Below, in pieces: positions 5,186-40,311 of a stretch of DNA of 40,600 bases. A program made the position numbers and the translations under genes. The DNA is from Prevotellaceae bacterium (lineage in GTDB: Bacteria; Bacteroidota; Bacteroidia; Bacteroidales; UBA932): the NCBI GenBank assembly GCA_031290935.1, contig JAISLK010000071.1, forward strand, positions 1-40,600, read 5' to 3'. Below the pieces are notes generated by a model. The model was not told the DNA's origin, ran no database searches, and saw only the letters and a list, made by a program, of their open reading frames with translations. The stretch's first letter is position 1, and the number at the start of each line of letters is the position of its first letter.

Positions 5186-5201
5186 GCCGGCTGGCGCCGG
5201 C
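5186..5201. repeat. GC-rich palindromic core between convergent sufC and tnaA
   Basis: GCCGGCTGGCGCCGGC in a 56-nt gap between two converging genes. The same core recurs in other spacers of this window (13047, 20300/20402, 21718, 24824, 29981, 32055/32107, 32643). It can fold as a hairpin and could act as a two-way transcription barrier. No low-complexity inverted arms flank this copy. Confidence 0.6.
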
Positions 5202-5221
5202 CCCGTATCCCCCTGTCATCG

Positions 5222-6777: not shown

Positions 6778-6888
6778 AAAAAAATTTGCAGATAAAAAAA
6801 ATCAGGGCTCTTTTGGTTCAAAGATTCCGGGATTTCAGGATTTCAGGCCGCCGTCCCCCCCGCTGCCGAGTCATTTTGCACTAACGCA

Positions 6889-7101
6889 AAATGAGTTTTG
6901 TTTAAACCAAACCGGGTTTTGTTTAAACCAAAGTGAGTTTTGTTTAAACCAAAATGAGTTTTGTTTAAACCAAAGTGAGTTTTGTTTAAACCAAAGTGAG
7001 TTTTGTTTAAACCAAAATGGGTTTTGTTTAAACCAAAGTGAGTTTTGTTTAAACCAAAATGGGTTTTGTTTAAACCAAAATGACTTTGGTCAAGACCAAA
7101 A
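6889..7101. repeat. Dyad array A: nine 21-bp units centred on GTTTAAAC
   Basis: GTTTAAAC occurs at 6900, 6921, 6942, 6963, 6984, 7005, 7026, 7047 and 7068, a strict 21-bp period, with a decayed unit on the right (TTTGGTCAAGACCAAA, near 7086). The spacing bases vary only at two positions (caaRtgRg). 21 bp is two helical turns, so all palindromes face the same side. The array lies between the tnaA promoter (leftward) and the priA promoter (rightward). Because 21 is a multiple of three, the minus strand stays open and would read FGLNKTH repeats (6843-7187), but no promoter for such an ORF is visible. Confidence 0.95.
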
Positions 7102-12911: not shown

Positions 12912-12937
12912 TAATATGGCGGCGGAATCATTTTATA

Positions 12938-13043
12938 CTTTCCGGAAGTGGGGAAAATGAAAAAAAGACTTTTTTATGCTTTCCGGAAGTGGGGAAAACG
13001 CAAAAAAGACTTTTTTATGCTTTCCCGATGTGGGGAAAACGCT
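12938..13043. repeat. Dyad array B: three 41-bp units with TTCCGGAA
   Basis: Units start at 12938, 12979 and 13020, a 41-bp period (about four helical turns). Each carries a TTCCGGAA palindrome (third copy changed to TTCCCGAT), then GTGGGGAAAA, and the first two end with an A-run/GAC/T-run dyad. The array lies between the panB promoter (leftward) and the cdd promoter (rightward). Confidence 0.9.
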
Positions 13044-13046
13044 TTC

Positions 13047-13058
13047 GCCGGCGCCGGC
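13047..13058. repeat. GC-rich palindromic core between panB and cdd
   Basis: GCCGGCGCCGGC, a perfect 12-bp palindrome adjoining array B, of the same type as other spacer cores. No arms are seen here. Confidence 0.5.
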
Positions 13059-13078
13059 CTCCATCCGTCAATTAAACA

Positions 13079-20270: not shown

Positions 20271-20280
20271 ACAAGTTTTT

Positions 20281-20430
20281 ATGAGTTATGAGTTATGAGT
20301 GCTGGCGCCCGCCCGTTCTATACTGGAACGGTCACCCGTTCTGCACTGGAACGGTCGCCCGTTCTGCACTGGAACGGTCACCCGTTCTGTACCGGAACGC
20401 CGCCGGCGCCAGCCAATTCATAACTCATAA
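20281..20430. repeat. Composite element with dyad array C (four 23-bp units)
   Basis: Order: arm ATGAGTTATGAGTTATGAGT (20281-20300), core GCTGGCGCC (20301-20309), four 23-bp units from 20312, 20335, 20358 and 20381, inverted core GGCGCCAGCC (20405-20414), and arm AATTCATAACTCATAA (20415-20430). Each unit has the dyad CCGTTC-7nt-GAACGG. The element fills the space between the ldcA and flavoprotein promoters. Confidence 0.9.
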
Positions 20431-20438
20431 TAAAATAC

Positions 20439-20446
20439 TACCTTTG
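20439..20446 (+). promoter_or_regulatory. Promoter box of the flavoprotein gene, near-leaderless
   Basis: TACCTTTG ends only 6 nt before ATG 20453, so the transcript would start at or just before the start codon. Confidence 0.55.
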
Positions 20447-20452
20447 CGGGCG

Positions 20453-21703
20453 ATGCAACTACCGGATATTATAGTTATCGGCGCAGGGCCGGCCGGCTTG
20501 CTGGCGGCGGGCATGGCGGCTTCCGGACAGCGGCGGGTATGGCTGCTGGAGAAAATGGAAAAGCCGGCGCGCAAGCTGCGCATCACCGGGAAAGGGCGCT
20601 GCAATATTACCAATACCAAGCCCTGGAACGATTTTGAGACGCATGTCTTCCCCCTGCCGCGCTACTTCAAGCCGGCGTTCATGAATTTCCCGAATACGGC
20701 ATTGATGCGCTTTATGGAAGCGGCGGGCGTTCCCGTTACGGTAGAGCGCGGCGGCCGTGTATTCCCCGCTTCCTCGCGGGCGCAGGACGTGGCCGAAGCC
20801 CTGGTGCGCTGGGTGCGGAGCAAAGATGTGGACATCCGCTGCCATACGGAAGTATTGCGGCTAATTACGGGTAACGGGAATATCACGGCGCTGGAAGCCC
20901 GCATAAACGGACGCTTGCAAACCCTGCCCGCCCGTGCGTTTATCGTCGCCACCGGCGGCCTCTCTTACCCTGCCACCGGCGCTACCGGCGACGGCTTCCG
21001 GTGGGCGGAAGCGGCGGGGCATACCGTCACGCCGCCCTATCCCTCGCTGGTATCATTGAAAACGGTCAATCCCCCGGCGGCGTTGAACGGGCTGGCACTG
21101 CGCAATGTGTCGTTAACCCTTTTCATCGAAGGGCGCGCAGTGGCGGACGATTTCGGGGAAATGGCGTTTACCGCCGACGGCGTGGACGGCCCCCTCGTCC
21201 TGCGCCTGAGCCATAAAGCGGTGGACGCCCTGCGCCAAAACAAGAAAGTAACGCTCGAACTGAATTGCAAGCCGGCATTGACCAACGAACAGCTGCACGC
21301 CCGCTGGCAACGCGAGCGGGCGGCCTTTCCCGGCGCCCCCCTCAGCGCCCTCCTCCGCAAATGGCTACCGGGGCAACTCATCCCCCCCTTTTTGGCGCAG
21401 GCAGGATTGCCGCCGGATAAAAAGACCGCGCAACTGGGCTTCGGGGAACAGCAGCAGCTCATGGCCGCTTTCCACTCGTGGAAAATGGACGTCTCGGGCT
21501 ATGGCGGCTACGAGCGGGCGGTCATCACGGCCGGCGGCGTTTCCATGAAAGACATTGACCATAAAACCATGCGCTCCCGCAAAATCGGCAACCTCTTCTT
21601 TGCCGGCGAAGTCCTCGGCCTCCATGCCGACACCGGCGGCTACAACCTGCAAATAGCCTTCTCCACCGGCTACCTGGCGGGGAAATCAGCAGCAGGAATT
21701 TGA
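20453..21703 (+). CDS. HI0933-type NAD(P)/FAD-dependent oxidoreductase
   Basis: Protein of 416 residues from ATG 20453. The reading frame stays open upstream through the repeat array, but the promoter box rules out an earlier start. It opens with a Rossmann FAD motif IVIGAGPAG (7-15), then KMEKPARKLRITGKGRCN, typical of HI0933/YhiN-type flavoproteins, and VATGGLSYPATGATGDG. The C-terminal FAD contact is GEVLGLHADTGGYNLQ with AFSTGYLAG. The family's physiological substrate is not settled; some members reduce bile-acid intermediates (BaiN), which cannot be claimed here. Its stop codon is the first three bases of an inverted repeat (21701-21711 with 21784-21794). Confidence 0.88.
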   Translation: MQLPDIIVIGAGPAGLLAAGMAASGQRRVWLLEKMEKPARKLRITGKGRCNITNTKPWNDFETHVFPLPRYFKPAFMNFPNTALMRFMEAAGVPVTVERGGRVFPASSRAQDVAEALVRWVRSKDVDIRCHTEVLRLITGNGNITALEARINGRLQTLPARAFIVATGGLSYPATGATGDGFRWAEAAGHTVTPPYPSLVSLKTVNPPAALNGLALRNVSLTLFIEGRAVADDFGEMAFTADGVDGPLVLRLSHKAVDALRQNKKVTLELNCKPALTNEQLHARWQRERAAFPGAPLSALLRKWLPGQLIPPFLAQAGLPPDKKTAQLGFGEQQQLMAAFHSWKMDVSGYGGYERAVITAGGVSMKDIDHKTMRSRKIGNLFFAGEVLGLHADTGGYNLQIAFSTGYLAGKSAAGI

Positions 21704-21794
21704 CGGGATGATGGGGTGCCGGCGCCGGTCATTGTGAGGGCGAAGCCTCCTTCATGCCACCCGTGAAGCCGGCGGCAGCTGACTCATCCCGTCA
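21701..21794. repeat. Inverted repeat with GGCGCC core after the flavoprotein gene
   Basis: TGACGGGATGA (21701-21711, containing the stop codon) and TCATCCCGTCA (21784-21794) are perfect inverted copies. Just inside is GCCGGCGCCGG (21718-21728). It may work as a terminator. It belongs to the composite-element pattern with short arms. Confidence 0.6.
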
Positions 21795-21830
21795 GGTATC
21801 CCGCAGCTGCATAATACCCATGTATAGGTA

Positions 21831-21861
21831 TTGCACGGGCGCAGGGAAGCGTGTACCTTTG
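21831..21861 (+). promoter_or_regulatory. Distal promoter of the hemerythrin operon
   Basis: TTG (21831-21833), 20 nt, TACCTTTG (21854-21861). An AAAGGA-ATG at 21893-21900 lies downstream, in frame with the hemerythrin gene, giving a possible 30-residue longer form. Confidence 0.6.
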
Positions 21862-21937
21862 CATCCGTATTGAGCCATTTTAAAAGATTTAAAAGGAATG
21901 AAGGTTTTGAGCAATCAAAGCCTTTATTTTTTACACA

Positions 21938-21956
21938 ATAAAATTGTACCTTTGCA
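21938..21956 (+). promoter_or_regulatory. Proximal promoter of the hemerythrin operon
   Basis: TACCTTTG at 21947-21954. The 19 nt around it match the rnr promoter (33094-33112) at 18 positions. Confidence 0.55.
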
Positions 21957-21987
21957 GGCGGCGGGCAAATCCGTAAATAGAAAAATT

Positions 21988-22686
21988 ATGTATAAACTTG
22001 GGAAATATACAGCCGGGGACACCATGAGCAGCCTGATAACCGGGAATTACCGGATGCTTTTAGTGATAAGCCGCTTTGGCATTGCGCTTGGCTTCGGCGA
22101 CAAGACTATCGGCGAGGTGTGCCTCGAAAACAAAGTGGATATAGCCACGTTCCTTGTTATTGTCAATATGCTGCTCGATGAGGACGGAGCTGCGAATTAT
22201 GCGCAGGCGGCGTTTTCCGTGGAATCGTTAATTTCCTACCTGCGCAATTCGCACGATTATTTTCTGAACTTCCGCCTGTCCGCCATACGCGCCGATTTGA
22301 AAGCCTTACTTTATAAGGATAAAAACGAACTGTCGCAGGCTATCCTGAACTATTTCGACGAATATGTCGCGGAAGTCCGCCGGCACATGTCATACGAAGA
22401 GGAAACGGTTTTCCCCTACGTGCGTGCGCTGCTTGCCGGACAACGCCGGGAAGATTATACCATCGCCATTTTCCGCCGGCAGCATGACCACGTGTCGGCG
22501 CGGCTTACGGAATTTAAAAATATTATCATCAAATATTATCCGTCAAAAAGCGCCAATGAAATCAACAGCCTGCTGTTCGATATTTTTAATTGCGAAAATG
22601 ACCTGGCTTCGCACAATGCCATCGAAGACCACCTGTTTGCGCCGGCTATCGTAGAACTGGAAAATAAAAACACAGTAAAAGGATGA
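21988..22686 (+). CDS. Hemerythrin-domain protein, partner of a LuxR regulator
   Basis: Protein of 232 residues from ATG 21988, the start that matches relatives (MYKLGKY...); a start at 21898 would add 30 atypical residues. Residues about 10-60 resemble the short N-terminal helix-rich domain seen before hemerythrin domains (DTMSSLITGNYRML). The hemerythrin four-helix part follows, with potential iron ligands in NSHDYF, RRHMSYEEE, RRQHDH and ASHNAIEDH. Such proteins carry a di-iron site that senses or binds oxygen or nitric oxide, or helps in Fe-S repair. Its stop overlaps the next gene's start (ATGA), so it is made together with the response regulator. Two promoters precede it. Confidence 0.85.
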   Translation: MYKLGKYTAGDTMSSLITGNYRMLLVISRFGIALGFGDKTIGEVCLENKVDIATFLVIVNMLLDEDGAANYAQAAFSVESLISYLRNSHDYFLNFRLSAIRADLKALLYKDKNELSQAILNYFDEYVAEVRRHMSYEEETVFPYVRALLAGQRREDYTIAIFRRQHDHVSARLTEFKNIIIKYYPSKSANEINSLLFDIFNCENDLASHNAIEDHLFAPAIVELENKNTVKG

Positions 22687-23294
22687 GCCACGTTCCGGTA
22701 AAAATAACCCTGGCCGACGCATCCGCTATCATCCGGAACGGGATACTGGCGGCGCTGAAACGCATGGAGGCTTTCCACTGCAAGGTGTTTGAGATTAGCG
22801 ACCCGGAGCAGTTGAAAAATTCACTCGGCTGGCAAAATCCCGATGTACTGATTATAAATCCGGTCTTTTTAAGCGCCATTTCCCTGCAGCAAATAAAGAA
22901 AGAAGCGCCGCAGGTAAAATGCGTCGCATTGCAGTATTCCCTTGCCGACAGCGCGGCCTTCAAACGCTACGACGACGTGATTTCCCTGTGCGACGGCGAA
23001 GAACAAATTACCGGTAAAATAACGAAACTGGTGCATGCGCCCGAAAAAGAAAAACGCCACGAATCGCTGAGCGCACGCGAGAAGGAAGTAATTGTATGCG
23101 TCATCAAGGGCATGACCAATAAACAAATTGCCGACAACCTGTGCCTTTCTGCACATACGGTGATTACGCACCGCCGGAATATCGCCGCCAAGCTGCAAAT
23201 CCACAGCACGGCGGGGCTTATCATTTACGCTATCGTGAATAAATTAGTGGAACTGGACGACGTCAAAGGCCTGGCGGCCGATACGGACGCATGA
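22683..23294 (+). CDS. LuxR-type regulator with degenerate receiver domain
   Basis: Protein of 203 residues. Residues 1-110 have the receiver fold, but the phospho-acceptor position reads PDVLIINPVF (Asn where Asp is expected), so normal phosphorylation is unlikely. Residues about 128-195 are a LuxR/GerE helix-turn-helix: LSAREKEVIVCVIKGMTNK then IADNLCLSAHTVITHRRNI. It is coupled to the hemerythrin gene by a 4-nt overlap, a pairing common in Bacteroidales, so it may respond to the redox or iron state of that protein rather than to a kinase. It likely controls stress or respiration genes; targets are not visible. Confidence 0.88.
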   Translation: MSHVPVKITLADASAIIRNGILAALKRMEAFHCKVFEISDPEQLKNSLGWQNPDVLIINPVFLSAISLQQIKKEAPQVKCVALQYSLADSAAFKRYDDVISLCDGEEQITGKITKLVHAPEKEKRHESLSAREKEVIVCVIKGMTNKQIADNLCLSAHTVITHRRNIAAKLQIHSTAGLIIYAIVNKLVELDDVKGLAADTDA

Positions 23295-23315
23295 CCATTA
23301 CAAAGGAAGCCGTCC

Positions 23316-24368
23316 ATGGATATTAACCGCCCTTCGTTTATCGCCCATTTTTCGGAACTCGGCAGGCGCATATCGGCGTGGCTGCGCGACGAAAACGCCT
23401 GCCCCGCATGGAGCGTTGCCGCGCAAAAAAGCGTGGCGGAAAACAGCTGGTTCACCATTGACAATATCAAATACGCCCTCGCCGCCATCGCATCGGACAT
23501 GCTGGACGAACAACGCCTGCAGCAATGGCTCTCCGCCTACCCGGAAGCCGGCAGCGCAAAGCGGGCGGGGGTCATCATGGCGGGAAATATTCCATTGGTG
23601 GGCTTCCACGATTTCCTGTGCGTATTGGCGGCGGGGCATTTTTTTATCGGGAAACTGTCGCACAAAGACGCCTTTTTACTGCCTGCGCTGGCAAGCGTGT
23701 TAACGGAGATACATCCCGGATGGCGCAGCCGCATTACATTTCAAGATGCCTTGCCGCTGCGCGGCATGGACTTTTTCATTGCTACCGGTTCGGATAACGC
23801 AGCTTATTACTTTGAAACCATCGCCGCCGCATTACGCGCTGCCGGCGGGCGCAGCCTTATCCGCCGCCACCGGCGCAGCGTAGCCGTGCTGAAAGGCAAT
23901 GAAACCGAAGCGGACTTAACCGGTTTGGCCAGCGATATGTTTAGCTATTTCGGGCTGGGTTGCCGCAGCGTGTCGTTGCTGTATGTGCCGGCGGGCTACC
24001 GGTGGCAACGGCTGGAAACAGTTCTCTCGGCGCAGCGGACATTGTTGCAGCACCCCGGATATGCCAATAATTACCGTTATCAAAAAGCGTTGCTGACGAT
24101 GCAGGGCAAGCCGTTCCGGGACGTGTCGGTGGCCTTGCTGTGCGAAGAGGCGTCGTTGCATGCACCCCCGGCGGTAGTGCATTACCGCTATTACCCGGCT
24201 ATCGGCGATGCGCTTGCATCCATTGCAAGACAACGCGGGCAAATACAATGCGTCGTCGGCGGGGACTTGAATTGTGATAATTTTTGTACCTTTGGCGCTG
24301 CCCAGCGCCCTTCGTTGCATGACTATGCCGACGGCGTGGACACGATGAAATTAATGAATAATATCTAA
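23316..24368 (+). CDS. LuxC-type acyl-CoA reductase
   Basis: Protein of 350 residues of the LuxC family (aldehyde dehydrogenase-like fold) that reduces acyl-CoA or acyl-ACP to aldehyde with NADPH. Motifs: AGNIPLVGFHDFLCVLAAGH about 88-107, DFFIATGSDNAAYYFE, and YFGLGCRSVSLLYVP near 212-226, whose Cys is the likely nucleophile. In Bacteroidota this gene is often next to a ferredoxin gene; none is here. It follows the LuxR regulator by 21 nt on the same strand. The true substrate in this group is unknown. Confidence 0.88.
   Translation: MDINRPSFIAHFSELGRRISAWLRDENACPAWSVAAQKSVAENSWFTIDNIKYALAAIASDMLDEQRLQQWLSAYPEAGSAKRAGVIMAGNIPLVGFHDFLCVLAAGHFFIGKLSHKDAFLLPALASVLTEIHPGWRSRITFQDALPLRGMDFFIATGSDNAAYYFETIAAALRAAGGRSLIRRHRRSVAVLKGNETEADLTGLASDMFSYFGLGCRSVSLLYVPAGYRWQRLETVLSAQRTLLQHPGYANNYRYQKALLTMQGKPFRDVSVALLCEEASLHAPPAVVHYRYYPAIGDALASIARQRGQIQCVVGGDLNCDNFCTFGAAQRPSLHDYADGVDTMKLMNNI
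24267..24294 (+). promoter_or_regulatory. Possible internal promoter for the PRiA4_ORF3-like gene
   Basis: TTG (24267-24269), 17 nt, TACCTTTG (24287-24294), inside the 3' end of the acyl-CoA reductase gene and 84 nt before the next ATG. It could let that gene be transcribed alone. Confidence 0.35.
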
Positions 24369-24378
24369 ATCTGCTATT

Positions 24379-24810
24379 ATGATATACCGGTTCACCGCCA
24401 CTGTTGATTCCTTAAAAGGATTTATGCGTCAGTACGAATTGCGCGGCTCCAATACTTTGTACGAATTGCACGGGCATATTGTAAATGATTTGAATTTTGC
24501 ACCCGACCAGATGGTGTTATTCCGCGTGGAAAGCGCAAAGGGCAAGCCGTCGAAAACATACGGCCTGTTTGATTTGGGCGACGGTTCCATGGATGAAATA
24601 CACATCGAGCAGCTGGTAAAGCAGAAGGAAACAACATTGCTGTATGTATTCGATATGCACGATAACCGGGCGTTACGCCTGTCTTTTGTTAAAACGGATG
24701 AGGAATTGCCGCGCAAAAGCTACCCGCGCACATCGGACGAAAAAGGCGACCCTCCCTCCCAGTTCCTTGACCCGCAAGACGACGACGAGGAAATTATGAA
24801 TTATGAATGA
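24379..24810 (+). CDS. PRiA4_ORF3-like (IS1096 TnpR-like) protein
   Basis: Protein of 143 residues of the plasmid pRiA4b ORF-3 family (also annotated IS1096 TnpR-like). The conserved start YRFTATVDSLKGFMRQYEL, then LYELHGHIVNDL and a YVFDMHDN strand are present. The family is common in Bacteroidota chromosomes and its function is unknown; the name does not mean that a transposon is here, and no transposase is near. The C-terminal 30 residues are acidic and disordered (DPQDDDEE). The last five residues (IMNYE) and the stop codon are written by the atgaattatgaa microsatellite arm of the following composite element. Confidence 0.8.
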   Translation: MIYRFTATVDSLKGFMRQYELRGSNTLYELHGHIVNDLNFAPDQMVLFRVESAKGKPSKTYGLFDLGDGSMDEIHIEQLVKQKETTLLYVFDMHDNRALRLSFVKTDEELPRKSYPRTSDEKGDPPSQFLDPQDDDEEIMNYE

Positions 24811-24895
24811 TGAATTATGAATTGGCTGGCGCCGGCAATTCATAACTCATAACTCATAACTCATAACTCATAATTCATAACTCATAATTCATAAC
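24793..24895. repeat. Composite element without cargo between PRiA4_ORF3-like gene and miaA
   Basis: Left arm of ATTATGAA words (24793-24823), core GGCTGGCGCCGGC (24824-24836), right arm of CATAACT/CATAATT words (24837-24895). The innermost 8 bases of the arms are exactly complementary (ATGAATTG/CAATTCAT, sharing core bases), and the rest pairs approximately. Confidence 0.85.
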
Positions 24896-25806
24896 CCATC
24901 ATCACACCAAAATTAATAGTTGTCACAGGTCCGACGGGCGTTGGAAAAACGGATTTCAGTTTGTCGTTGGCGCGTCGTTTGCCCACCGTTATTGTATCGG
25001 CGGATGCACGGCAGCTGTACCGCGAAATGAAGGTCGGCACGGCGCCGCCGGACGAACGGCAGCTGGCAGCCGTGCCGCATTATTTTATCGGCAGCCATTC
25101 CATTCATACGCATTATACGGCCGGGCAGTACGAGCTGGATGCGCTGGCGGTGCTGGAGAAACTCTTTGCCGTGCATCCGGCGGTTTTATTGGTGGGCGGC
25201 TCCGGGTTGTACATTGATGCGGTGTGCTCCGGTATGGATTATTTCCCCGAGACAGGCCGGGCGTTGCGGGCGGCGCTCACGGAACGTCTGCAAACGGAGG
25301 GTATCGAGCGTTTGCGTTTACAGTTGAAGCAGCTTGACGAGCCCTCTTATTATGCCATTGATTTGAAGAATCCGCAACGGATTATGCGGGCGCTGGAAGT
25401 ATGCCTCTCCACCGGGAAGCCTTATTCCAAATGGAAAACCGGCGTTACGAAGCAACGCCCTTTCGATACGGTGAAAATCGGCTTGCAGCGGCCGCGCGGG
25501 GAGTTGTATGCACGCATCAATGCCCGCACGCGGCAGATGATGGACGGCGGGCTGCTGGAAGAAGCAAAGGCGCTCTATCCGTACAGGGGGTTGACGGCGC
25601 TTAAAACCGTTGGCTATACGGAGCTGTTCGATTATTTGGACGGTAAAACGACATTGGAAGAGGCGGTGCAGCTCATCTGCCAGCATACGCGCAATTATGC
25701 CAAAAAGCAACTGACCTACTGGTCGCGCTACAGCGACATCCGCTGGCTGGACGCGGCCGCGCCGGATTTGCTGGAGAGGGCTGCCCGGTTCATCGCAGGT
25801 CAATGA
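24895..25806 (+). CDS. miaA: MiaA, tRNA dimethylallyltransferase; no canonical start codon
   Basis: The open frame begins right after a TAA at 24892-24894 and encodes about 303 residues. It includes the P-loop GPTGVGKTD (24928-24954), SADARQLYREM, LVGGSGLYIDAV and the late TVGYTELFDYLDG and QHTRNYAKKQLTYW motifs. MiaA adds a dimethylallyl group to A37 of tRNAs reading U-starting codons. No ATG, GTG or TTG occurs between the stop and the P-loop; the first TTG is at 24955-24963, past the P-loop, which would destroy the enzyme. Relatives start a few residues before KLIVVTG, where this sequence reads ATC-ATC-ACA, apparently microsatellite. Either initiation uses ATC/ATA or expression is lost. The end overlaps lolA by 17 nt. 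Confidence 0.8.
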   Translation, partial: PIITPKLIVVTGPTGVGKTDFSLSLARRLPTVIVSADARQLYREMKVGTAPPDERQLAAVPHYFIGSHSIHTHYTAGQYELDALAVLEKLFAVHPAVLLVGGSGLYIDAVCSGMDYFPETGRALRAALTERLQTEGIERLRLQLKQLDEPSYYAIDLKNPQRIMRALEVCLSTGKPYSKWKTGVTKQRPFDTVKIGLQRPRGELYARINARTRQMMDGGLLEEAKALYPYRGLTALKTVGYTELFDYLDGKTTLEEAVQLICQHTRNYAKKQLTYWSRYSDIRWLDAAAPDLLERAARFIAGQ

Positions 25807-26431
25807 TTTCAATACCCGGATAACGGTGTTTCGGGAAAGCGAAATACCCGTCGAGTGCTTCCACGCCCGGCGTGATGCGCGTGATGCGCAGGGTACAGTT
25901 GCCGCTTTTGGAAAGGTATTTTATGGCATACGGATTGGCGGTGGCTTCTTCCAGGGTCAATACAACAGAGGTGTAGGCGGCGTTTTTATCTTTGGGCAGG
26001 AATACGATATCGGCAAGCGTTTTTCCCGCTTCTGTCCGGGTTGTTTTCTGTTTGTACGTAAAATCTTTCCGGTACAGGGTAAGGAATTTTAGCGGGTGGT
26101 CTGTAATGTCCGCCGTGGCGCCGTCTTCCGGGATGTACTGGATGACGGCCTCGTTGGTTTCTTTATTGCACAGCCACTTGTTCCGCCCGTCGCTGTACAC
26201 GTCCAGCTCACCGGTAAGCAGGCGGTATTTGTTGCCGCTGCACAGGAACGTCCCCTCATAGTTACGCACTGTCCCTTTCCCCGGGTTATCCACCTGCAGG
26301 GTAAACGCCATTTCGACGGTCTCGTAGCCGTTGATTTTGTCGGTGAAAGCAGCAAGCAGCTGTTTGGCGCTTTGCGCAGCAACGCCTGTCGCGTAAAAGA
26401 AAATCAAGAGTACTGTGAGGATGTTTTTCAT
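25790..26431 (-). CDS. LolA-like periplasmic lipoprotein carrier
   Basis: Protein of 213 residues from ATG 26431. The signal peptide is residues 1-19 (cleavage after VAA before Q). The mature region is a LolA/LolB-type half barrel: VEMAFTLQVDNPG, YEGTFLCSGNKYRLL, DVYSDGRNKWLCNKETNE and a Pro-rich end. Such proteins carry lipoproteins from the inner to the outer membrane. In Bacteroidales it is often next to ftsK; here a DUF4469-like gene lies between them. The start codon directly abuts a catcac microsatellite arm, leaving no space for a promoter or ribosome-binding site. The 3' end overlaps convergent miaA. Confidence 0.85.
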   Translation of the reverse strand: MKNILTVLLIFFYATGVAAQSAKQLLAAFTDKINGYETVEMAFTLQVDNPGKGTVRNYEGTFLCSGNKYRLLTGELDVYSDGRNKWLCNKETNEAVIQYIPEDGATADITDHPLKFLTLYRKDFTYKQKTTRTEAGKTLADIVFLPKDKNAAYTSVVLTLEEATANPYAIKYLSKSGNCTLRITRITPGVEALDGYFAFPKHRYPGIEIIDLR

Positions 26432-26552
26432 GATGTGGTGATGTGGGGATGTGATGATGTGGTGATGTGATGATGTGGTGATGTGGTAAAGATGGATGAA
26501 GGGCTGGCACCGACAGCTCATAACTCATAATTCATAATTCATAATTCATAAC
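26432..26552. repeat. Degenerate composite element upstream of lolA
   Basis: gatgtgg/gtgatgat words (26432-26487), a decayed core GGCTGGCACCGACAGC (26502-26517), then CATAACT/CATAATT words (26518-26552). The two arms do not match each other, as if two elements were joined. Confidence 0.7.
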
Positions 26553-26554
26553 TC

Positions 26555-26650
26555 CTTTAGAAGTATCTCTTATGCCTCCATAAGAAGTACCTCTTATGCT
26601 TTCATAAGAAGTACCTCTTATGCCTCCATAAGAAGCACCTCTATAAGTGA
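26555..26650. repeat. Dyad array D: four 24-bp units
   Basis: AGAAG occurs at 26559, 26583, 26607 and 26631, a 24-bp period. Each unit junction holds CATAAGA-6nt-TCTTATG with GTAC in the centre. It lies between the DUF4469-like gene stop and the lolA element, on the leader side of lolA. Confidence 0.9.
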
Positions 26651-26686
26651 TATTATTTGCTGCTGCTTTAGTCATGTGTTTATCCG

Positions 26687-27424
26687 TCAGGGTTCCGGTA
26701 CGGTTAACAGGGCGTCGAACCGGCCGGTTTTTATGGCTTTGAGCGGTTTGTTGGTAGTGGCGTAGTTGGTGCGCACTTCCATCCGGTAATCGCCGGAAGG
26801 CAGGTGGGCAGGCAGCATGGCAACCAGGTGTTTCGGCTTGTTGACCATCACCTGGGACAGCCGGCAGGCGTCGCCGCCGGCGGCAGGCAGGAGGAATATT
26901 CCGTTGGTTTCCCAGCCGGGCAGGAACCGGAGGTGATGTCCCCTGAGGTCAATGCTGTTGCCCGGGGTAAGCAGTTCGTTAGCGGTATCGCTGCCATAGT
27001 CGTACACGGTGCTGATGAAGGGCAGGGTATCCGCCACGCCGTTGACCGCGACTTCTACCCGTTCGAGCTCGTCGCGCAGCAGTTTGCCTTGCCGGAGTTC
27101 AAACAGCAGCTTGTGCCGCGCGGGGTCGAACGTATCGGCAGGCGATGTGAAAATCCCCTGTACGCACAGTCTGGAGTGGAAATAGCCGAGGTTAATGGCG
27201 TTGTCATCGCACAGTTGGTAGGCCATTTCCTTAAGGAAGGCTTTTACGGCGCGCGCCATGTCTTCCGGCCTCATGCCCGACCCCCCGCGCTCAAAGGCCA
27301 ATTGGGATACGTCGTCGATGTTATAGACATGTTCGACCTTTGTCCGGCCGCTGTAGTCATCAGCGGCGGACGTCAACGGGTTTTTGTACAGGTTCACATG
27401 TACTTTATGCAGGTATTTACTCAT
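26687..27424 (-). CDS. DUF4469-like protein with N-terminal HU-like DNA-binding region
   Basis: Protein of 245 residues. The first 130 residues resemble the HU/IHF-like module in Bacteroidota nucleoid-type proteins (VNLYKNPLTSAADDYSGR, IDDVSQLAFERG, NLGYFHSRL); residues about 145-245 form an all-beta region of the DUF4469 type (NSIDLRGHHLRFLP, LVAMLPAHLPSGDYRMEVRT). Function unknown; DNA binding is inferred from the N-terminus. Its leader on the coding strand is an almost pure purine tract of about 100 nt (27425-27530). It sits between ftsK and lolA on the same strand, interrupting a usual neighbour pair. Confidence 0.75.
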   Translation of the reverse strand: MSKYLHKVHVNLYKNPLTSAADDYSGRTKVEHVYNIDDVSQLAFERGGSGMRPEDMARAVKAFLKEMAYQLCDDNAINLGYFHSRLCVQGIFTSPADTFDPARHKLLFELRQGKLLRDELERVEVAVNGVADTLPFISTVYDYGSDTANELLTPGNSIDLRGHHLRFLPGWETNGIFLLPAAGGDACRLSQVMVNKPKHLVAMLPAHLPSGDYRMEVRTNYATTNKPLKAIKTGRFDALLTVPEP

Positions 27425-27530
27425 CGCTCCTCCTGTTTTACTTTCTCCTTTTTCACCTTTTCCTCCCTTTCATCCATCTTCCTCCTTTCAACAATCTTCC
27501 ACAATCTTCCACAATCTTCCTCCCTTTTCA
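27425..27530 (-). repeat. Polypurine tract between ftsK and the DUF4469-like gene
   Basis: On the minus strand the spacer is nearly all A and G with three GGAAGATTGT-like repeats, overlapping the ftsK stop. It offers many Shine-Dalgarno-like GGAGG words and could form triplex structures; no promoter box is visible. Confidence 0.6.
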
Positions 27531-29864
27531 CCCCTCCATTGCCGCCAGTTTGGCGTCCAGCGTTACAAAGTCGGAGATAAGCACCTGCCGCGGTTTGCTG
27601 CCTTCCGGCGGGCCTACGATGCCGGCGGCTTCGAGCTGGTCCATTAAGCGTCCGGCGCGGTTGTAGCCCAGTTCCAGCTTGCGCTGGATAAGCGACGTCG
27701 AGCCTTGCTGGCTTTGTACGATAATGCGCGCCGCTTCTGCGAACAGTGCGTCGCGCTTGCTCAAATCTATTTTTTCGGCATTGCCGCTTTCTTCGCCTTT
27801 GTATTCGGGCAGGCGGAAGGCTTCGCCGAAGCCCTGCTGCTGCCCGATGAAGTCGCAGATACGTTCGACTTCGGGCGTGTCAACGAATGCGCACTGTACG
27901 CGTATCATTTCATTACCGGTGGACACCAGCATGTCGCCGCGCCCAATCAGCTGGTTCGCGCCGGTGGTGTCAAGGATGGTGCGCGAATCGATGCCGGAGA
28001 TAACGCGGAAGGCGATACGCGCCGGGAAGTTGGCTTTTATCAATCCGGTAATAATATTCGTCGTCGGGCGCTGCGTCGCGATGACTAAGTGAATGCCGAC
28101 AGCCCTTGCCAGTTGCGCCAGCCGCGCAATCGGTTCTTCCACTTCCCTGCCGGCGGTCATAATCAGGTCGGCAAATTCGTCAATCACTATCACGATGAAC
28201 GGCATGTACCGGTGGCCTTGCAGCGGGTTTAACCGGCGGTTGACGAACCGCTCGTTGTATTCTCTGACGTTGCGGACTTTTGCCGACTGCAGCAGCTGGT
28301 ACCGTTCGTCCATCTCCATGCACAGTGATTTCAGCGTATAGACCACCTTTTGCGTGTCGGTGATAATCGCGTCGTCGCTGTCGGGCAGTTTGGCGAGGAA
28401 ATGCCGTTCCAGTTTTGCATACAGCGACAGTTCTACCCGCTTGGGATCTACCAGCACCAGCTTCAATTCCGACGGGTGCTTGCGGTAGAGCAGCGAAGTA
28501 AGGATAGCGTTCAGCCCGACGGATTTCCCCTGCCCCGTAGCGCCGGCCACCAGGAGGTGCGGCATTTTTGCCAAATCGAACGTATAAATCTCATTGTCGA
28601 TTTTCCTCCCGAGCACCACCGGCAAGTCGTACTGCGCTTCCTGGAACTTCTGGGATTTTACGGCCGAGAGCATGGATACGATGTTCGGGTGCTCGTTCGG
28701 CACTTCGATGCCCACCGTGCCTTTTCCCGGAATGGGCGCAATAATGCGGATGCCCAGCGCCGAGAGGTTCAGCGCGATGTCGTCTTCCAGCCGTTTGATG
28801 GCGGCGATGCGGATGCCGGCTTTCGGCACAATTTCGTATAACGTAACCGTAGGGCCGATAGTCGCAATGATTTTGTCAATCCCGATATTGAAATTCTGCA
28901 GTACGGTAACAATCCTGTCTTTGTTGCGTTCCAGTTCCTCGTCGGTAGGCATGGCGCCTTTTCCCTTGTGGTCTTCGAGCAAATCCAGCGGCGGCCTTTT
29001 ATAATGCGACAACTCCTTAGTCGGGTCATACAGTTCGCTGCCTTCCACGAAACCTTCGCCGCCGTCTTCGCTATCCTCCTCCGGGGAAGGCGGGGGGGTG
29101 CCGCCGTCCGGCGTTTCACCGCCGTCCGGTTCGGGGCTTTCCTCCGTACCGCCGTCCGGGCGATGGATGATAAAACCTTTGTCGCCGTTATCCCCTTTAT
29201 CGCCGTTATCCGGCAACTCAAATTCTTTATCCAGCGGCGGCGGAGCAGGAGCAGGAGCGTCCGCTTCCACCGCGCCGCTTTTCTTTTTCCCCTGGAACAG
29301 GCTTTGCAGCCGGGCGATAAACTTCGGGCTGACGAATATTCCCCAGCTTACCGTCAGTAATAAAAGGAGCAGCGCCGTTCCGGCAATGCCGATGGCTTGT
29401 ATCAGCCATCCGCTTACCATATCGCCGGTGATGCCGCCAAGCCCTTTTCCTATCAAGCCTTTCAACGAAGGTATCAAATGCCCGAATATAAATCCCAGGA
29501 ACAGGGAGAATAAAATGCAGCCGGTAAGCGTGGCTAAAACTATTTTATAAAAATGCACGATGCGTACTTTCAATAAATGCAAACCCCATAAACCGAGCAG
29601 GAGGGGTATCCCGAGCGCCGCCAGCCCGAAATATTCACCCATCAGGAAATTCGCCCAGCGGTAGCCGAGCTTCCCGATAAGGGGGGACGCCTGTACGCCG
29701 CTTTGGTATGCGCCCCAGCGAAAGATATACAGGAGTAAAACAATAAGCGTGAAAAAGGCAAACAAAAGAACCAGCGCACCGCCGATAAAACGGAGGCTGT
29801 CATTGCGCCGCTGCCCTTCGCCTGCAGGCGGAACCTGCTTCCCGGTATTTTTGTTCTTGGCCAT
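27528..29864 (-). CDS. ftsK: FtsK/SpoIIIE DNA translocase
   Basis: Protein of 778 residues. The N-terminus has four to five membrane segments (about 25-205), followed by an acidic Pro/Gly-rich linker (about 215-285). The motor domain has Walker A GATGQGKS near 437-444, DPKRVELSLY, Walker B VIVIDEFADLI and RPTTNIITGLIKANFP. The C-terminal winged-helix gamma domain (about 715-778: GSTSLIQRKLELGYNRAGRL) reads orienting sequences on DNA. FtsK pumps chromosome termini through the closing septum and activates dimer resolution. It is preceded by a composite repeat element and murA on the same strand. It has no promoter of its own that I can see. Confidence 0.96.
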   Translation of the reverse strand: MAKNKNTGKQVPPAGEGQRRNDSLRFIGGALVLLFAFFTLIVLLLYIFRWGAYQSGVQASPLIGKLGYRWANFLMGEYFGLAALGIPLLLGLWGLHLLKVRIVHFYKIVLATLTGCILFSLFLGFIFGHLIPSLKGLIGKGLGGITGDMVSGWLIQAIGIAGTALLLLLLTVSWGIFVSPKFIARLQSLFQGKKKSGAVEADAPAPAPPPLDKEFELPDNGDKGDNGDKGFIIHRPDGGTEESPEPDGGETPDGGTPPPSPEEDSEDGGEGFVEGSELYDPTKELSHYKRPPLDLLEDHKGKGAMPTDEELERNKDRIVTVLQNFNIGIDKIIATIGPTVTLYEIVPKAGIRIAAIKRLEDDIALNLSALGIRIIAPIPGKGTVGIEVPNEHPNIVSMLSAVKSQKFQEAQYDLPVVLGRKIDNEIYTFDLAKMPHLLVAGATGQGKSVGLNAILTSLLYRKHPSELKLVLVDPKRVELSLYAKLERHFLAKLPDSDDAIITDTQKVVYTLKSLCMEMDERYQLLQSAKVRNVREYNERFVNRRLNPLQGHRYMPFIVIVIDEFADLIMTAGREVEEPIARLAQLARAVGIHLVIATQRPTTNIITGLIKANFPARIAFRVISGIDSRTILDTTGANQLIGRGDMLVSTGNEMIRVQCAFVDTPEVERICDFIGQQQGFGEAFRLPEYKGEESGNAEKIDLSKRDALFAEAARIIVQSQQGSTSLIQRKLELGYNRAGRLMDQLEAAGIVGPPEGSKPRQVLISDFVTLDAKLAAMEG

Positions 29865-29870
29865 CTTAGT

Positions 29871-30027
29871 TGATGTGGTGATGTGATGATGTGGTGATGT
29901 GATGATGTGGTGATGTGATGATGTGGCTATCGCCAGTTTATTATTCGTTATTTATATTCGTTGTTTATATTCGTTGTTTTCCGGCGCCAGCCTTCATCAT
30001 CACATCACCACATCATCACATCACATC
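29871..30027. repeat. Composite element with 13-bp-repeat cargo between murA and ftsK
   Basis: Left arm of GATGTGGT/GATGTGAT words (29871-29926), decayed core CTATCGCCAG (29927-29936), cargo with TTTATATTCGTTG repeated (29937-29980), core CCGGCGCCAGCC (29981-29992), right arm of CATCAC words (29995-30027) complementary to the left arm and ending at the murA stop. Confidence 0.88.
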
Positions 30028-31338
30028 TTAATTCTGCATTCTCTCTATATGTGCGCCCAGTGCATTCAGCCGTTTGTCGATATATTGGTAGCCGCGGTCA
30101 ATTTGGTCGATGCGCTGGATGAGGCTCACGCCTTCGGCGCTCATAGCGGCAATGAGCAACGCAATGCCGGCGCGGATGTCCGGCGAACTCATCCGGGCGG
30201 CGCGTAGCGTAAAAGCATGGTCATGCCCGATAACCGTAGCGCGGTGCGGGTCGCAGAGAATAATTTGCGCCCCCATGTCGATGAGGTTGTCCACAAAAAA
30301 GAGGCGGCTTTCAAACATTTTTTGATGGATAAGCACGGTGCCTTTGGCTTGCGTGGCTACTACGAGGAATACGCTGAGCAGGTCGGGCGTAAGCCCCGGC
30401 CACGGCGCATCGGCGATAGTCATAATCGAACCGTCGATGAATGTCTCGATTTCGTAATGTTCCTGCGCGGGAATGTAAATATCGTCGCCGCGCTGCTGCA
30501 GCGCAATGCCTAAGCGGGCAAACTGTGCAGGGATAATCCCAAGGTTGTCGTACGACACGTTTTTAATGGTCAGTTCGCTCCGCGTCATCGCCGCCATGCC
30601 GATAAAACTGCCGACTTCAATCATGTCGGGCAATATCGTATGTTCGGCGCCGGCAAGGCTGCCGACGCCTTCAATCGTAAGCAGGTTGGAGCCGACGCCG
30701 GATATTTTCGCGCCCATGCGGTTCAGCAGGCGGCACAGTTGCTGCACATACGGCTCGCAGGCGGCGTTATAAACAGTAGTAGTCCCGTGCGCCATCACCG
30801 CCGCCATCACAATATTGGCGGTGCCGGTAACCGACGCCTCGTCGAGCAGCATGTACGCCCCTTTGAGGTGCGAGGCTTCCACCGTATAAAAACTTTCGTT
30901 GGCGTTATACGAAAAGACAGCGCCTAACTTCTGGAACCCGATAAAGTGGGTATCCAGCCGGCGGCGGCCGATTCTGTCGCCGCCCGGGCGGGGCATGTAG
31001 CCATAGCCGAAACGCGCCAGCAGCGGCCCTACTATCATCACCGAGCCGCGCAACGCGGCAGCCCTGCCTTGAAATTCGGCGGTTTTTAAATAGTCCAGGT
31101 CAACATCGGCTGCTTGAAAAACATACGTGCCGGCAGAAAGCCGCTCTACGCTTACGCCCATGTTCTTCAATAATACTATCAGGTTGTTTACATCTAAAAT
31201 GTCGGGGATATTATGCACCGTAACCTTTTCGGGCGTAAGCAGCGTAGCGCACAATATTTGCAACGCTTCGTTCTTTGCGCCCTGCGGTACAATTTCACCT
31301 TTCAGCCGGCAACCGCCCTGTATTTTGAAAATAGACAT
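30028..31338 (-). CDS. murA: MurA, UDP-GlcNAc enolpyruvyl transferase with Asp at the fosfomycin site
   Basis: Protein of 436 residues, full length. MurA transfers enolpyruvate from PEP to UDP-GlcNAc, the first committed step of murein synthesis. Visible: GAKNEAL at 20-26, the flexible loop PRPGGDRIGRRRLD at 116-129, and LLRIP-type catalytic segments later. Asp121 takes the place of the Cys (Cys115 of E. coli) that fosfomycin alkylates; Asp variants are known to be active and fosfomycin-resistant, and this is usual in Bacteroidota. It lies 19 nt downstream of the DUF4290 gene, an established neighbour in this phylum. Confidence 0.96.
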   Translation of the reverse strand: MSIFKIQGGCRLKGEIVPQGAKNEALQILCATLLTPEKVTVHNIPDILDVNNLIVLLKNMGVSVERLSAGTYVFQAADVDLDYLKTAEFQGRAAALRGSVMIVGPLLARFGYGYMPRPGGDRIGRRRLDTHFIGFQKLGAVFSYNANESFYTVEASHLKGAYMLLDEASVTGTANIVMAAVMAHGTTTVYNAACEPYVQQLCRLLNRMGAKISGVGSNLLTIEGVGSLAGAEHTILPDMIEVGSFIGMAAMTRSELTIKNVSYDNLGIIPAQFARLGIALQQRGDDIYIPAQEHYEIETFIDGSIMTIADAPWPGLTPDLLSVFLVVATQAKGTVLIHQKMFESRLFFVDNLIDMGAQIILCDPHRATVIGHDHAFTLRAARMSSPDIRAGIALLIAAMSAEGVSLIQRIDQIDRGYQYIDKRLNALGAHIERMQN

Positions 31339-31357
31339 TACATTAATTTCTCTAAAC

Positions 31358-31978
31358 TTACTTCTTCTTCTTCTTAAACTTCTTTTTCCCGTTGTTATTC
31401 TGCTGATGGTAGAGATGCGGGGGATTGTTGTTTTGTATCTCCATCAGCTTGAGGGAGGGGTTCACGTGGATACGCCCTTTCGACAGGCTTTCCATATCTT
31501 TTAATATAATATCGTCGGTTACCGTGTCTTTGTTCCATGTCAGGTATTGCTTCTTCATGTAATTCGCCATGGCCGTAATCATAGTTTCCTTATTCGGGCA
31601 TTCAGGGATGTCGGCGAGGACTTTCAGCATATTTTCGATATTGCGCCCATAGTGCATAATGCTTACCGGGCTTTTCGGGTACGGAATCGTCGCCGGCTTT
31701 TCCTTGAAAGTCGCCGGAGTCGGCAAAGGATAAGGCGAGTCAATGTCTATTTCAAAATCGGCAATGAGGTACACATGATCCCACAGTTTGTGGCGGAAGT
31801 CCACAATATCGCGCAGGTGCGGGTTTAAATTACCCATCACCGCTACCACCGCCCGCACCTGTTCATTGCGTTTCTCGCGGTCTTTAATGGATTTTACATA
31901 CTGTATCATTTTTTGGATATGCCGCCCATATTCGGGGAGTACCAGGTTCCGGCGTTGTGAATTGTAATCGAAATTCAT
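31358..31978 (-). CDS. DUF4290 family protein
   Basis: Protein of 206 residues, a Bacteroidota-specific family of unknown role. The start MNFDYNSQRRNLVLPEYGR is well conserved; the middle has PYPLPTPATFKEKP and SIMHYGRNIENML. The C-terminus is low complexity, Asn/Lys-rich (GKKKFKKKKK), probably flexible and basic and able to bind nucleic acid. It is first in a leftward unit with murA, and its promoter box ends 19 nt before the ATG. Confidence 0.88.
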   Translation of the reverse strand: MNFDYNSQRRNLVLPEYGRHIQKMIQYVKSIKDREKRNEQVRAVVAVMGNLNPHLRDIVDFRHKLWDHVYLIADFEIDIDSPYPLPTPATFKEKPATIPYPKSPVSIMHYGRNIENMLKVLADIPECPNKETMITAMANYMKKQYLTWNKDTVTDDIILKDMESLSKGRIHVNPSLKLMEIQNNNPPHLYHQQNNNGKKKFKKKKK

Positions 31979-31997
31979 TTGATAATTTTTTTGCCGG

Positions 31998-32005
31998 CAA
32001 AGATA
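31998..32005 (-). promoter_or_regulatory. Promoter box of the DUF4290-murA unit
   Basis: Minus-strand TATCTTTG; its -33 region would lie inside or at the edge of the left arm (32017-32052) of the composite element. Confidence 0.55.
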
Positions 32006-32016
32006 CGAATTTTTTT

Positions 32017-32158
32017 GATGTGGCGAGGGGATGATGTGCGAATGTGATTAATGGGGCTGGCGCCGGTGCAAAACAAGTTAACAGTTGGCAGTAAGCAGCA
32101 GGCAGTGGCTGGCGCCAGCGTAATTAATCACATTCGCACATCATCCCCTCGCCACATC
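32017..32158. repeat. Composite element with perfect 36-bp inverted arms (DUF4290/folK)
   Basis: The arms at 32017-32052 and 32123-32158 are exact reverse complements over 36 bp (left arm starts GATGTGGCGAGGGGATGATG). Inside are cores GGCTGGCGCCGG (32055-32066) and GGCTGGCGCCAGC (32107-32119) around a 40-bp cargo with GTTAAC and CAGCAGGCAGTGG words. The right arm encodes the C-terminus of folK. Confidence 0.95.
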
Positions 32159-32631
32159 GCCACATCGCCGGCATCGCTACATTCCTGCAAGAGGGTACGG
32201 ATATTTTTTTTCAATACCGGATGTTCCCTGTCCGGCAGGATTTCGCAAAGCGGCAGGAGGGCGAAGCGGCGTTCGTGCAAGCGGGGATGCGGAATAACCA
32301 AGCGGGAGGTATGGATGATTTCCATACCGGCAAATAAAATATCAATATCCATCGTGCGCGAGGAATAGCCTGCGCCATGCGGCTTTTCACGCCCCAAGTT
32401 TTTTTCGATTTGTTGCGTAACGGACAGTAACGGCAGCGGCAACAGCGCCGTTTCTATTTCCACCGCCTGGTTTATAAACCGGCAGGGCGACGCAAAACCC
32501 CAAGGCTCGCTTTCGTACAAAGCCGACTGCCGCACTATTTTTCCGGCATATTGCGACAGTTGCGCACGCGCCTGCCGCAGCAAACCTGCCCGGTCGCCCA
32601 TATTACTGCCTAAAAGTAAGTCGTAAGTCAT
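32128..32631 (-). CDS. folK: FolK, HPPK of folate synthesis
   Basis: Protein of 167 residues. HPPK transfers pyrophosphate from ATP to 6-hydroxymethyl-dihydropterin. Motifs: LLLGSNMGDR at the start, SEPWGFASP and FINQAVEIET, and the metal/ATP site RTMDIDILF followed by IPHPRLHERRFALLPLCEI. The final residues (about GDVAMWRGDDVRM) and the stop codon are encoded by the composite element's right arm, so the native C-terminus was probably replaced; the catalytic core ends before that. It lies 69 nt downstream of the MIP18-like gene on the same strand. Confidence 0.9.
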   Translation of the reverse strand: MTYDLLLGSNMGDRAGLLRQARAQLSQYAGKIVRQSALYESEPWGFASPCRFINQAVEIETALLPLPLLSVTQQIEKNLGREKPHGAGYSSRTMDIDILFAGMEIIHTSRLVIPHPRLHERRFALLPLCEILPDREHPVLKKNIRTLLQECSDAGDVAMWRGDDVRM

Positions 32632-32642
32632 TTTAGTCGTAA

Positions 32643-32695
32643 GCCGGCTGGCGCCGGCATAAATCCGTAAATCCGCAAATCCGTAAATCTTTTCA
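32643..32695. repeat. GC-rich core with aaatccgt repeats between folK and the MIP18-like gene
   Basis: GCCGGCTGGCGCCGGC (32643-32658), then AAATCCGTAAATCCGCAAAT words up to about 32690. On the other side are AAGTCGTAAGTC words (32622-32642). The arms do not pair. Confidence 0.65.
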
Positions 32696-35302: not shown

Positions 35303-35382
35303 TGCCTTTGCACCCGAAATATTTCTAAAAATAAAGATATATGAGCAATAAAGCAACCGCCGGAACCCTCATTTCCACCTAA
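35303..35382 (+). other. First copy of a duplicated leader and short peptide start, cut by a hairpin
   Basis: Promoter-like TGCCTTTGCACCCGAAA (35303-35319), then ATG at 35341 and the shared ATAAAGCAACCGCCGGAA (35348-35365), giving MSNKATAG before the frame enters the large hairpin and stops at 35380-35382. The second copy is at 35597-35698. It is probably the 5' end of a gene split or replaced by the hairpin. Confidence 0.55.
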
Positions 35383-35554
35383 TTTTGAACACAAAACAAC
35401 CTCAGTAGCCAGGGAATATCCCACACGCACTAACCTCATTAGCTCATTAAAATGAAATCGGAAGAAAACAAATGAGGTAATGAGGTGGTGCGGGGTGGTC
35501 TGTCCGTGTGCTGCTACTGAGGTTGTTTTGTGTTCAAAATTAGGTGGGAATGAG
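35368..35554. repeat. 187-bp nested inverted repeat (MITE-like or structured RNA)
   Basis: The outer arms at 35368-35409 and 35513-35554 are complementary at 41 of 42 positions. Inner arms at 35426-35448 and 35471-35492 pair imperfectly (ACCTCATTA/TAATGAGGT), and the loop is about 22 nt of A-rich sequence. No target duplication is obvious. It lies between two copies of a short leader sequence. Confidence 0.9.
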
Positions 35555-35573
35555 GTTTTATCTGCCGCTCAAA

Positions 35574-35827: not shown

Positions 35828-36154
35828 ATGCCGGCAACAGGAAAATACCACTTAACATCCCGTCCGTTCCCGGGAATGTGTCGTTCATTCCCGGGAATAA
35901 GTCATTCATTCCCGGGAATAGGTCGTTCATTCCCGGGAATAGGTCGTTCATTCCCGGGAATGCGTCATTCATTCCCGGGAATAGGTCGTTCATTCCCGGG
36001 AATAGGTCGTTCATTCCCGGGACTGCGCCATTCATTCCCGGGAATGCGCCATTCATTCCCGGGAATAGGTCATTCATTCCCGGGAATGCGCCATTCATTC
36101 CCGGGAATATATATGCCGCTCATCCCTCCCTGTGGACTGTTTACTAACCCTTAA
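35828..36154 (+). CDS. Heptapeptide-repeat ORF encoded by the palindrome array
   Basis: ATG 35828 is 24 nt after a consensus promoter; the frame runs 108 residues through dyad array E and stops 11 nt before the next gene. It encodes about a dozen SFPG-(I/M)-x-x heptads (SFPGIGR, SFPGMRH) after a short head (MPATGKYHLTS). No signal peptide or known fold. The array is open on both strands because its unit is 21 bp, so the ORF may be a by-product; the promoter and spacing are what favour translation. Confidence 0.35.
   Translation: MPATGKYHLTSRPFPGMCRSFPGISHSFPGIGRSFPGIGRSFPGMRHSFPGIGRSFPGIGRSFPGLRHSFPGMRHSFPGIGHSFPGMRHSFPGIYMPLIPPCGLFTNP
35869..36108. repeat. Dyad array E: twelve 21-bp units centred on CCCGGG
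   Basis: Twelve CCCGGG palindromes at a 21-bp period, mostly in the 12-bp palindrome ATTCCCGGGAAT, separated by variable aggtcgttc-like bases. It shares the 21-bp period with array A but not the sequence. It is located between the promoter at 35773 and the gene at 36166. Confidence 0.96.
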
Positions 36155-40257: not shown

Positions 40258-40311
40258 TAATGATGGGGTGATGTCGCGGTGTGATGATGTAGCCGGAGCC
40301 GGCAACGCATA
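40258..40311. repeat. Degenerate composite element
   Basis: GATGGGGTGATGTCG/GTGATGATGT words followed by GCCGGAGCCGGC (40292-40303) and GCATAATT. It lies between two divergent promoter boxes (40231 leftward, 40327 rightward). Confidence 0.5.

Follow-up and report, generated by a model that had tools for sequence, protein, structure and literature searches.

Many spacers of one uncultured genus of Bacteroidales carry a pattern that is real and unusual: arrays of short words on either side of a GC-rich joint. We favour, with slightly less than even confidence, the explanation that these elements are a genus-specific, fast-evolving modular spacer repeat, and neither one transposon nor one conserved hairpin. 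Each half-element is a 7-8-nt word array with its G-rich strand inward, ending in a variable half-core. An element consists of two such halves in head-to-head contact at GGCGCC or, in some sister species, at CGCG with non-palindromic halves. Half-elements are borne by the ends of genes and by the ends of non-coding cargo (minisatellites and structured repeats).

Materials and methods

The window was a stretch of 40,600 nucleotides from genome G000, a 1.64-Mb draft of 78 contigs that is 63% complete. The sister genome G001 is 94% complete. Nearest named records of the murA-like protein of the window were from Alistipes and other Rikenellaceae (about 75-78% identity). The genus sample contained nine genomes (G000 and eight further), and the order-wide sample contained 393 genomes, with G000 included and G001 left out. 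Elements were analysed in 734 kb of G000 and 322 kb of G001, read as stretches. Genes were called by an ad hoc script (a simple codon-usage caller), while promoters and terminators were searched as simple patterns. The closest relatives compared were about 82% identical, which is species level.

Results

Enrichment and distribution of the core

The preliminary description had proposed that a GGCGCC-type core recurs in spacers, and the counts confirmed this to be far beyond chance. In the window the core was present nine times in 27 spacers (4.9 kb) against 0.05 expected from dinucleotide shuffles, and the same shuffles gave 1.03 expected against 68 observed in the 734 kb of G000 and 0.47 against 72 in the 322 kb of G001. 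Over the whole genome, GCTGGCGCC had 187 copies in G000 (reversed control, 8) and 732 in G001 (controls, 14), the highest of the genus. Its enrichment was detected in 9/9 genus genomes, with a more than 10-fold spread of copy number among congeners, and was absent in most family members. Within the 393-genome order sample, the 12-mer GCTGGCGCCAGC had 26 copies in G000 and a single copy in each of 24 further genomes; G001, which lies outside that sample, had 187. A dialect core, GGCTGGCGCGCCAGCC, was counted with at most one mismatch 104 times in G007, 36 in G002, 20 in G004, 3 in G001 and 0 in G000. With the simple gene caller, 77 of 96 copies in G000 and 109 of 129 in G001 were intergenic (about 80%), where spacers made up 17% and 26%, respectively, of the DNA in the stretches analysed. 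Our search of the literature on intergenic palindromes in Bacteroidales found nothing relevant.

As an over-represented short oligomer with species dialects, the core resembles a DNA uptake sequence (DUS). A protein-binding or uptake-type signal (candidate GGCTGGCGCCAGCC), an analogue of the neisserial DUS whose inverted pairs would be maintained at gene ends, is also consistent with the hundreds of copies in G001, the dialect cores of sister species, the inverted arrangement at gene ends and the confinement to the genus. We consider it very improbable, however, in view of the copy-number spread between congeners, the variable half-cores and the location of about 80% of copies in spacers, whereas intragenic DUS are common (PMC3630211); it would also leave the word arrays unexplained.

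When the sites in the window were re-read, cores and arms were present where they had been reported, and exact or degenerate cores occurred at the sites called minimal, solo or decayed (5189, 13046, 21717, 24824, about 26503, 32646 and about 40291; Table 1).

Table 1. Parts of the elements in the window
Feature	Position	Strand	Remark
Left arm (TTATGAG)3	20279..20300		G-rich strand toward core
Core GCTGGCGCC	20301..20309	+
Cargo, 23-bp minisatellite x3.8	20312..20399		internal dyad CCGTTC...GAACGG
Second, inverted core GCCGGCGCCAGCC	20402..20414	-	approximate ends
Right arm AATTCATAACTCATAAT	20415..20431
Left arm (AATTATG)n	24792..24823		encodes C-terminal IMNYE and stop of ORF 24379-24810
Core GGCTGGCGCCGGCA	24824..24837	+
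Right arm (TCATAAC)n	24838..24899
Left arm (TGATGTGG)n	29871..29924		between murA-like and ftsK-like genes
Degenerate core GGCTATCGCCAG	29925..29936	+
Cargo, 13-bp repeat (GTTTATATTCGTT)3.3	29936..29979
Core TTCCGGCGCCAGCC	29979..29992	-
Right arm	29993..30027		reaches into murA-like stop codon
Left arm	32017..32054		pairs with right arm 32121..32158
Core GGCTGGCGCCGGTG	32055..32068	+
Cargo of GCAGTAAGCAGCAGGCAGT type	32069..32106
Core GGCTGGCGCCAGCG	32107..32120
Right arm	32121..32158		overlaps coding of C-terminal tail DVAMWRGDDVRM, folK-like ORF 32128-32631 (minus strand)
Single core GGCTGGCGCCGGCC	5189..5202	+	convergent spacer
Single core	13046..13059		C-rich words on right; adjoins 41-bp minisatellite
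Core-like TGCCGGCGCCGGTC	21717..21730		followed by structured sequence
Decayed core GGCTGGCACCGACAGC	26503..26518	+	approximate; between GATGTGG and CATAACT words
Single core GGCTGGCGCCGGCA	32646..32659	+	right arm (TAAATCCG)n
Decayed core AGCCGGAGCCGGCA	40291..40304		approximate

Other repeats were also noted in the window. Minisatellites, mostly in spacers, lie at 6887-7101 (21 bp), 35867-36109 (21 bp), 26552-26642 (24 bp) and 12931-13042 (41 bp), and several minisatellite units have internal dyads, for example TTCCCGGGAA. The contig end (1-118) is a perfect pentamer array, (CTGTG)23.6. A 46-nt inverted repeat at 35364-35409 and 35513-35558 (96% complementary, 103 nt apart), which has no GGCGCC core, is possibly a different mobile element.

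Arms, words and half-cores

The commonest form was one core flanked by two arms. Of the core loci, 5 of 76 (G000) and 14 of 80 (G001) had at least one more core within 300 bp, so that the composite form first described (arm, core, cargo, inverted core, arm) exists as a minority. Over about 50 nt on each side, the sequence was G-rich and C-poor left of the core and the mirror image on the right. The arms were tandem arrays of 7-8-nt words with a species-specific vocabulary; thus they do differ from site to site, as had been proposed, but they are not unrelated, being drawn from the common vocabulary of the species. Typical words were AATTATG, ATGATGTG and AAAGTTG in G000 and AATTATG, AAAAGTT and ATGATGT in G001, with AATGGAG among all G001 arrays. 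The G-rich strand ran toward the core in 224 of 263 skewed arms (98:22 in G000, 126:17 in G001). This inward polarity was shared by 34 of 37 distinct periodic words (13/14 in G000, 21/23 in G001), and therefore is not the history of a single word. Tandem arrays of all periods up to 30 numbered 259 per Mb in G000 and 491 in G001 against 88 in other Bacteroidota; as short-unit tandem arrays above expectation in spacers, they have the properties of intergenic simple-sequence repeats (SSRs).

Only GGCGCC and about three flanking positions were common to the copies, which therefore lack the conserved full-length stem-loop of REP/BIME families. For comparison with MITEs, which are characterised by constant terminal inverted repeats and target-site duplication, the arms differed between copies. 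The earlier view that the core alone is shared was upheld in this respect, and copies did not align from end to end, apart from certain cargo modules that recur as dispersed repeats. Each half-core consists of a few variable bases beside GGCGCC, and the two halves combined independently across the dyad: observed/expected pairing at positions 1-4 of the core flanks was 0.31/0.35, 0.62/0.62, 0.56/0.50 and 0.22/0.30 in G000 and similar in G001. No covariation beyond that of independent columns was detected at these four positions in either genome, and a conserved hairpin is accordingly not supported.

Arm pairing and folding

Complementary arms, and a long RNA hairpin in each full copy, had been part of the preliminary description. 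The two arms of one element reached a complementarity score of at least 30 in 21-23% of cases; when arms were taken from different elements, the figure was 7% (permutation P = 0.0002 in G000; 0 of 10,000 permutations in G001). The excess is real but small, and arms are not complementary as a rule. In the window, the longest arm pair (32017-32064 with 32111-32158) was 94% complementary over 48 nt. Folding of 86-nt windows gave a mean z of -2.5 against -0.9 in control spacers, and z was below -4 in 25% of elements and 8% of controls. Most copies therefore do not follow the model of a conserved long hairpin, and the long hairpin first proposed forms in a minority of them; as a universal feature it was rejected for want of covariation in the core flanks.

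Position relative to genes

The core was present in 31% of convergent spacers in G000 and 50% in G001; the corresponding figure for tandem and divergent spacers was 14-33%. Within tandem spacers it lay closer to the upstream stop codon in 45 of 60 cases. Of 94 gene ends, 60 had an arm that began no more than 10 nt from the stop codon, and for 43 the distance was at most 3 nt. At the 24810 site the C-terminal residues of the protein are written by the word array and read IMNYE, PEEL, YENGEWRVEN or EEV depending on the species.

This placement would suit a bidirectional transcription terminator or insulator, a predicted role that we regard as unlikely to be the general explanation. A transcript would cross the G-rich arm, the GC-rich core and then a C-rich, G-poor arm of about 60 nt, a putative Rho loading site, and copies with pairing arms would form hairpins guarding the 3' end. 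The convergent and stop-proximal positions argue for it, as do the low mean folding z and the low-G arm of about 60 nt found downstream of the core in tandem spacers. Convergent ends carried an intrinsic terminator in 10-21% of cases, compared with 38% in other Bacteroidota, and at one convergent spacer (L072 6170) an intrinsic terminator is present in G002 and G007, whereas G000 has nothing but the element. On the other hand, a TAnnTTTG promoter between the core and the next start was found in 55% of tandem cases in G000 and 31% in G001 (missing in 45% and 69%, respectively), and this simple pattern detected none between the core and the ftsK-like gene. With the promoter so often missing after the core, transcription seems to continue across many elements. 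Intrinsic terminators were not clearly rarer in core-bearing spacers, and a mutual exclusion of the two was not found. The elements themselves differ from intrinsic terminators in having C-rich words after the core, with a hairpin and T-tract at only 10-21% of core-facing gene ends. As regards a predicted Rho-type site, the C-rich, G-poor composition and the 7-8-nt spacing fit, but YC dinucleotides showed no excess (0.154 against 0.155 expected). The core flanks lack pairing covariation, and the asymmetry of arm length is confounded by the space available.

Turnover between species and cargo

Comparison of orthologous spacers between species sharing about 82% identity showed elements present or absent, and words and half-cores changed. 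The 24810 spacer had a core-like sequence and words in all five species compared, with different words in the four sisters. The element of the 29864 spacer, between the murA-like and ftsK-like genes, was found only in G000, the orthologous spacers of relatives being without the GGCGCC core; that of the 24368 spacer was present in four species and missing from G000. The G001 counterpart of the divergent spacer at 20279-20431 had no element. Sharing of elements across orthologous spacers did not significantly exceed chance (12/22 against 14/36, P = 0.29) with a permissive pattern that also matches 13% of 100-nt coding stretches.

A cargo border at GGCGCC was seen in one module, the 23-bp minisatellite, which was 97% identical at two G000 loci and ended at GGCGCCGGC in both. 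Genome G001 contained a GC-rich structured cargo of 208 nt (L169:295-502) with copies in L176, L173, L259, L270, L284 and L178. Most copies were about 87-95% identical. Each end of the repeat has a terminator-like hairpin, and the predicted folding energy was -109.5 kcal/mol (z -5.4). The cargo was flanked by A and T runs, then by words, which varied by copy, and then by cores. Searches of the window and of the G001 cargo against Rfam gave nothing above the gathering score except one tRNA.

A non-autonomous transposable element of MITE or REP/BIME type, mobilized by a transposase in trans, would account for dispersed, multi-copy elements, for their presence or absence at orthologous spacers and for cargos that are full-length repeats. 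It is improbable, because Y1 (RAYT-type) transposases were found in only 2 of the 9 genomes and in neither G000 (63% complete) nor G001 (94%), for which reason RAYT/REP was dropped; moreover, there are no common arms and no full-length alignment, half-cores combine freely, and no target duplication was recognised between relatives about 82% identical. Three further candidates were dropped: repeats made by a reverse transcriptase, RVT_1 being present in only 4 of 9 genomes and so no common cause; a phage-borne element, as viral contigs had no match to two core-plus-arm patterns; and restriction-site shuffling at GGCGCC, as some sister species join at CGCG. One protein with a reverse-transcriptase domain was noted in G000 (C34:2992-3687, L303) and others in G001, G002 and G007.

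Discussion

For the modular spacer repeat, recombination, joining and slippage at the DNA level are indicated as the generator by halves that combine independently, a vocabulary particular to each species, a cargo module that ends at the joint, and rapid turnover; the steps are reconstructed from their products. Words would multiply by slippage. Ectopic recombination or microhomology joining would carry copies of half-elements and cargo from one locus to another, and the joints used would be GGCGCC and the word arrays. We infer the joining step, since relatives no closer than about 82% identity reveal no strain-level insertion event. Copying and slippage would homogenise the vocabulary within a species and change it between species, and elements would build up between the stop codon and the next promoter because they are tolerated there. 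Some copies, with pairing arms or at convergent ends, probably also act as bidirectional terminators or insulators, as a by-product that would not account for the family itself; such use is predicted, and possible at some sites rather than in general. The enrichment at convergent ends (31-50%) and the nearness to stops in tandem spacers also fit selection for termination.

Slippage and recombination alone do not account for the uniform inward polarity of more than 30 words, a feature that no explanation here covers in full. Such polarity would also give, whichever way the element is transcribed, C-rich and G-poor RNA after the core, a candidate Rho site. More speculatively, it would suit a genome that is a mosaic of capped segments, with the elements as scars of break-capping and end-joining, which we hold to be highly improbable. 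A repeat-adding activity would then extend the ends of genes and cargo with the G-rich strand outward, as in telomeres, GGCTGG(CG) would close these ends, and head-to-head fusion would occur at the self-complementary CG/GGCGCC. We know of no description of such a process in bacteria.

Short, streamlined spacers are usual in bacteria. Across the whole of this genus the spacers are rewritten with interchangeable words of fixed polarity, which replace protein C-termini, and at one site an element stands in place of the terminator of relatives. The genus offers a natural experiment on the origin of repeats, their homogenisation within species and their replacement between species, and makes possible a direct test of selection on composition and architecture without sequence.

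Like REP/BIME elements with RAYT, the genus elements are GC-rich dyads scattered over intergenic sites close to gene ends, but they have no conserved stem, their arms differ per site and G000 and G001 have no Y1 transposase. In Xanthomonas and Nostoc, G-rich heptamer repeats are enriched in particular genomes (PMC4692102). Genome-specific enrichment of G-rich heptamers is common to both systems, whereas the abstract of that report describes no palindromic joint. Neisseriaceae have dialects of the uptake sequence, and their terminators contain paired uptake signals (PMC3630211, PMC1852404). The genus elements share with them the species dialects, copy numbers in the hundreds and inverted pairs at gene ends, but cores vary half by half, about 80% are intergenic, word arrays flank them and T-tracts are scarce. 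Besides the long SSRs of Mrazek 2007, as cited in PMC4679880, TAACTGA heptamer repeats occur in spacers of Beggiatoaceae, Cyanobacteria and five Bacteroidetes (PMC4679880). These share with the genus elements the tandem 7-nt units, the mostly intergenic location and the lineage-limited expansion. The heptamer SSRs are direct repeats of one word, whereas the genus elements use dozens of words in two opposed arrays, with a GC-rich joint and a fixed polarity.
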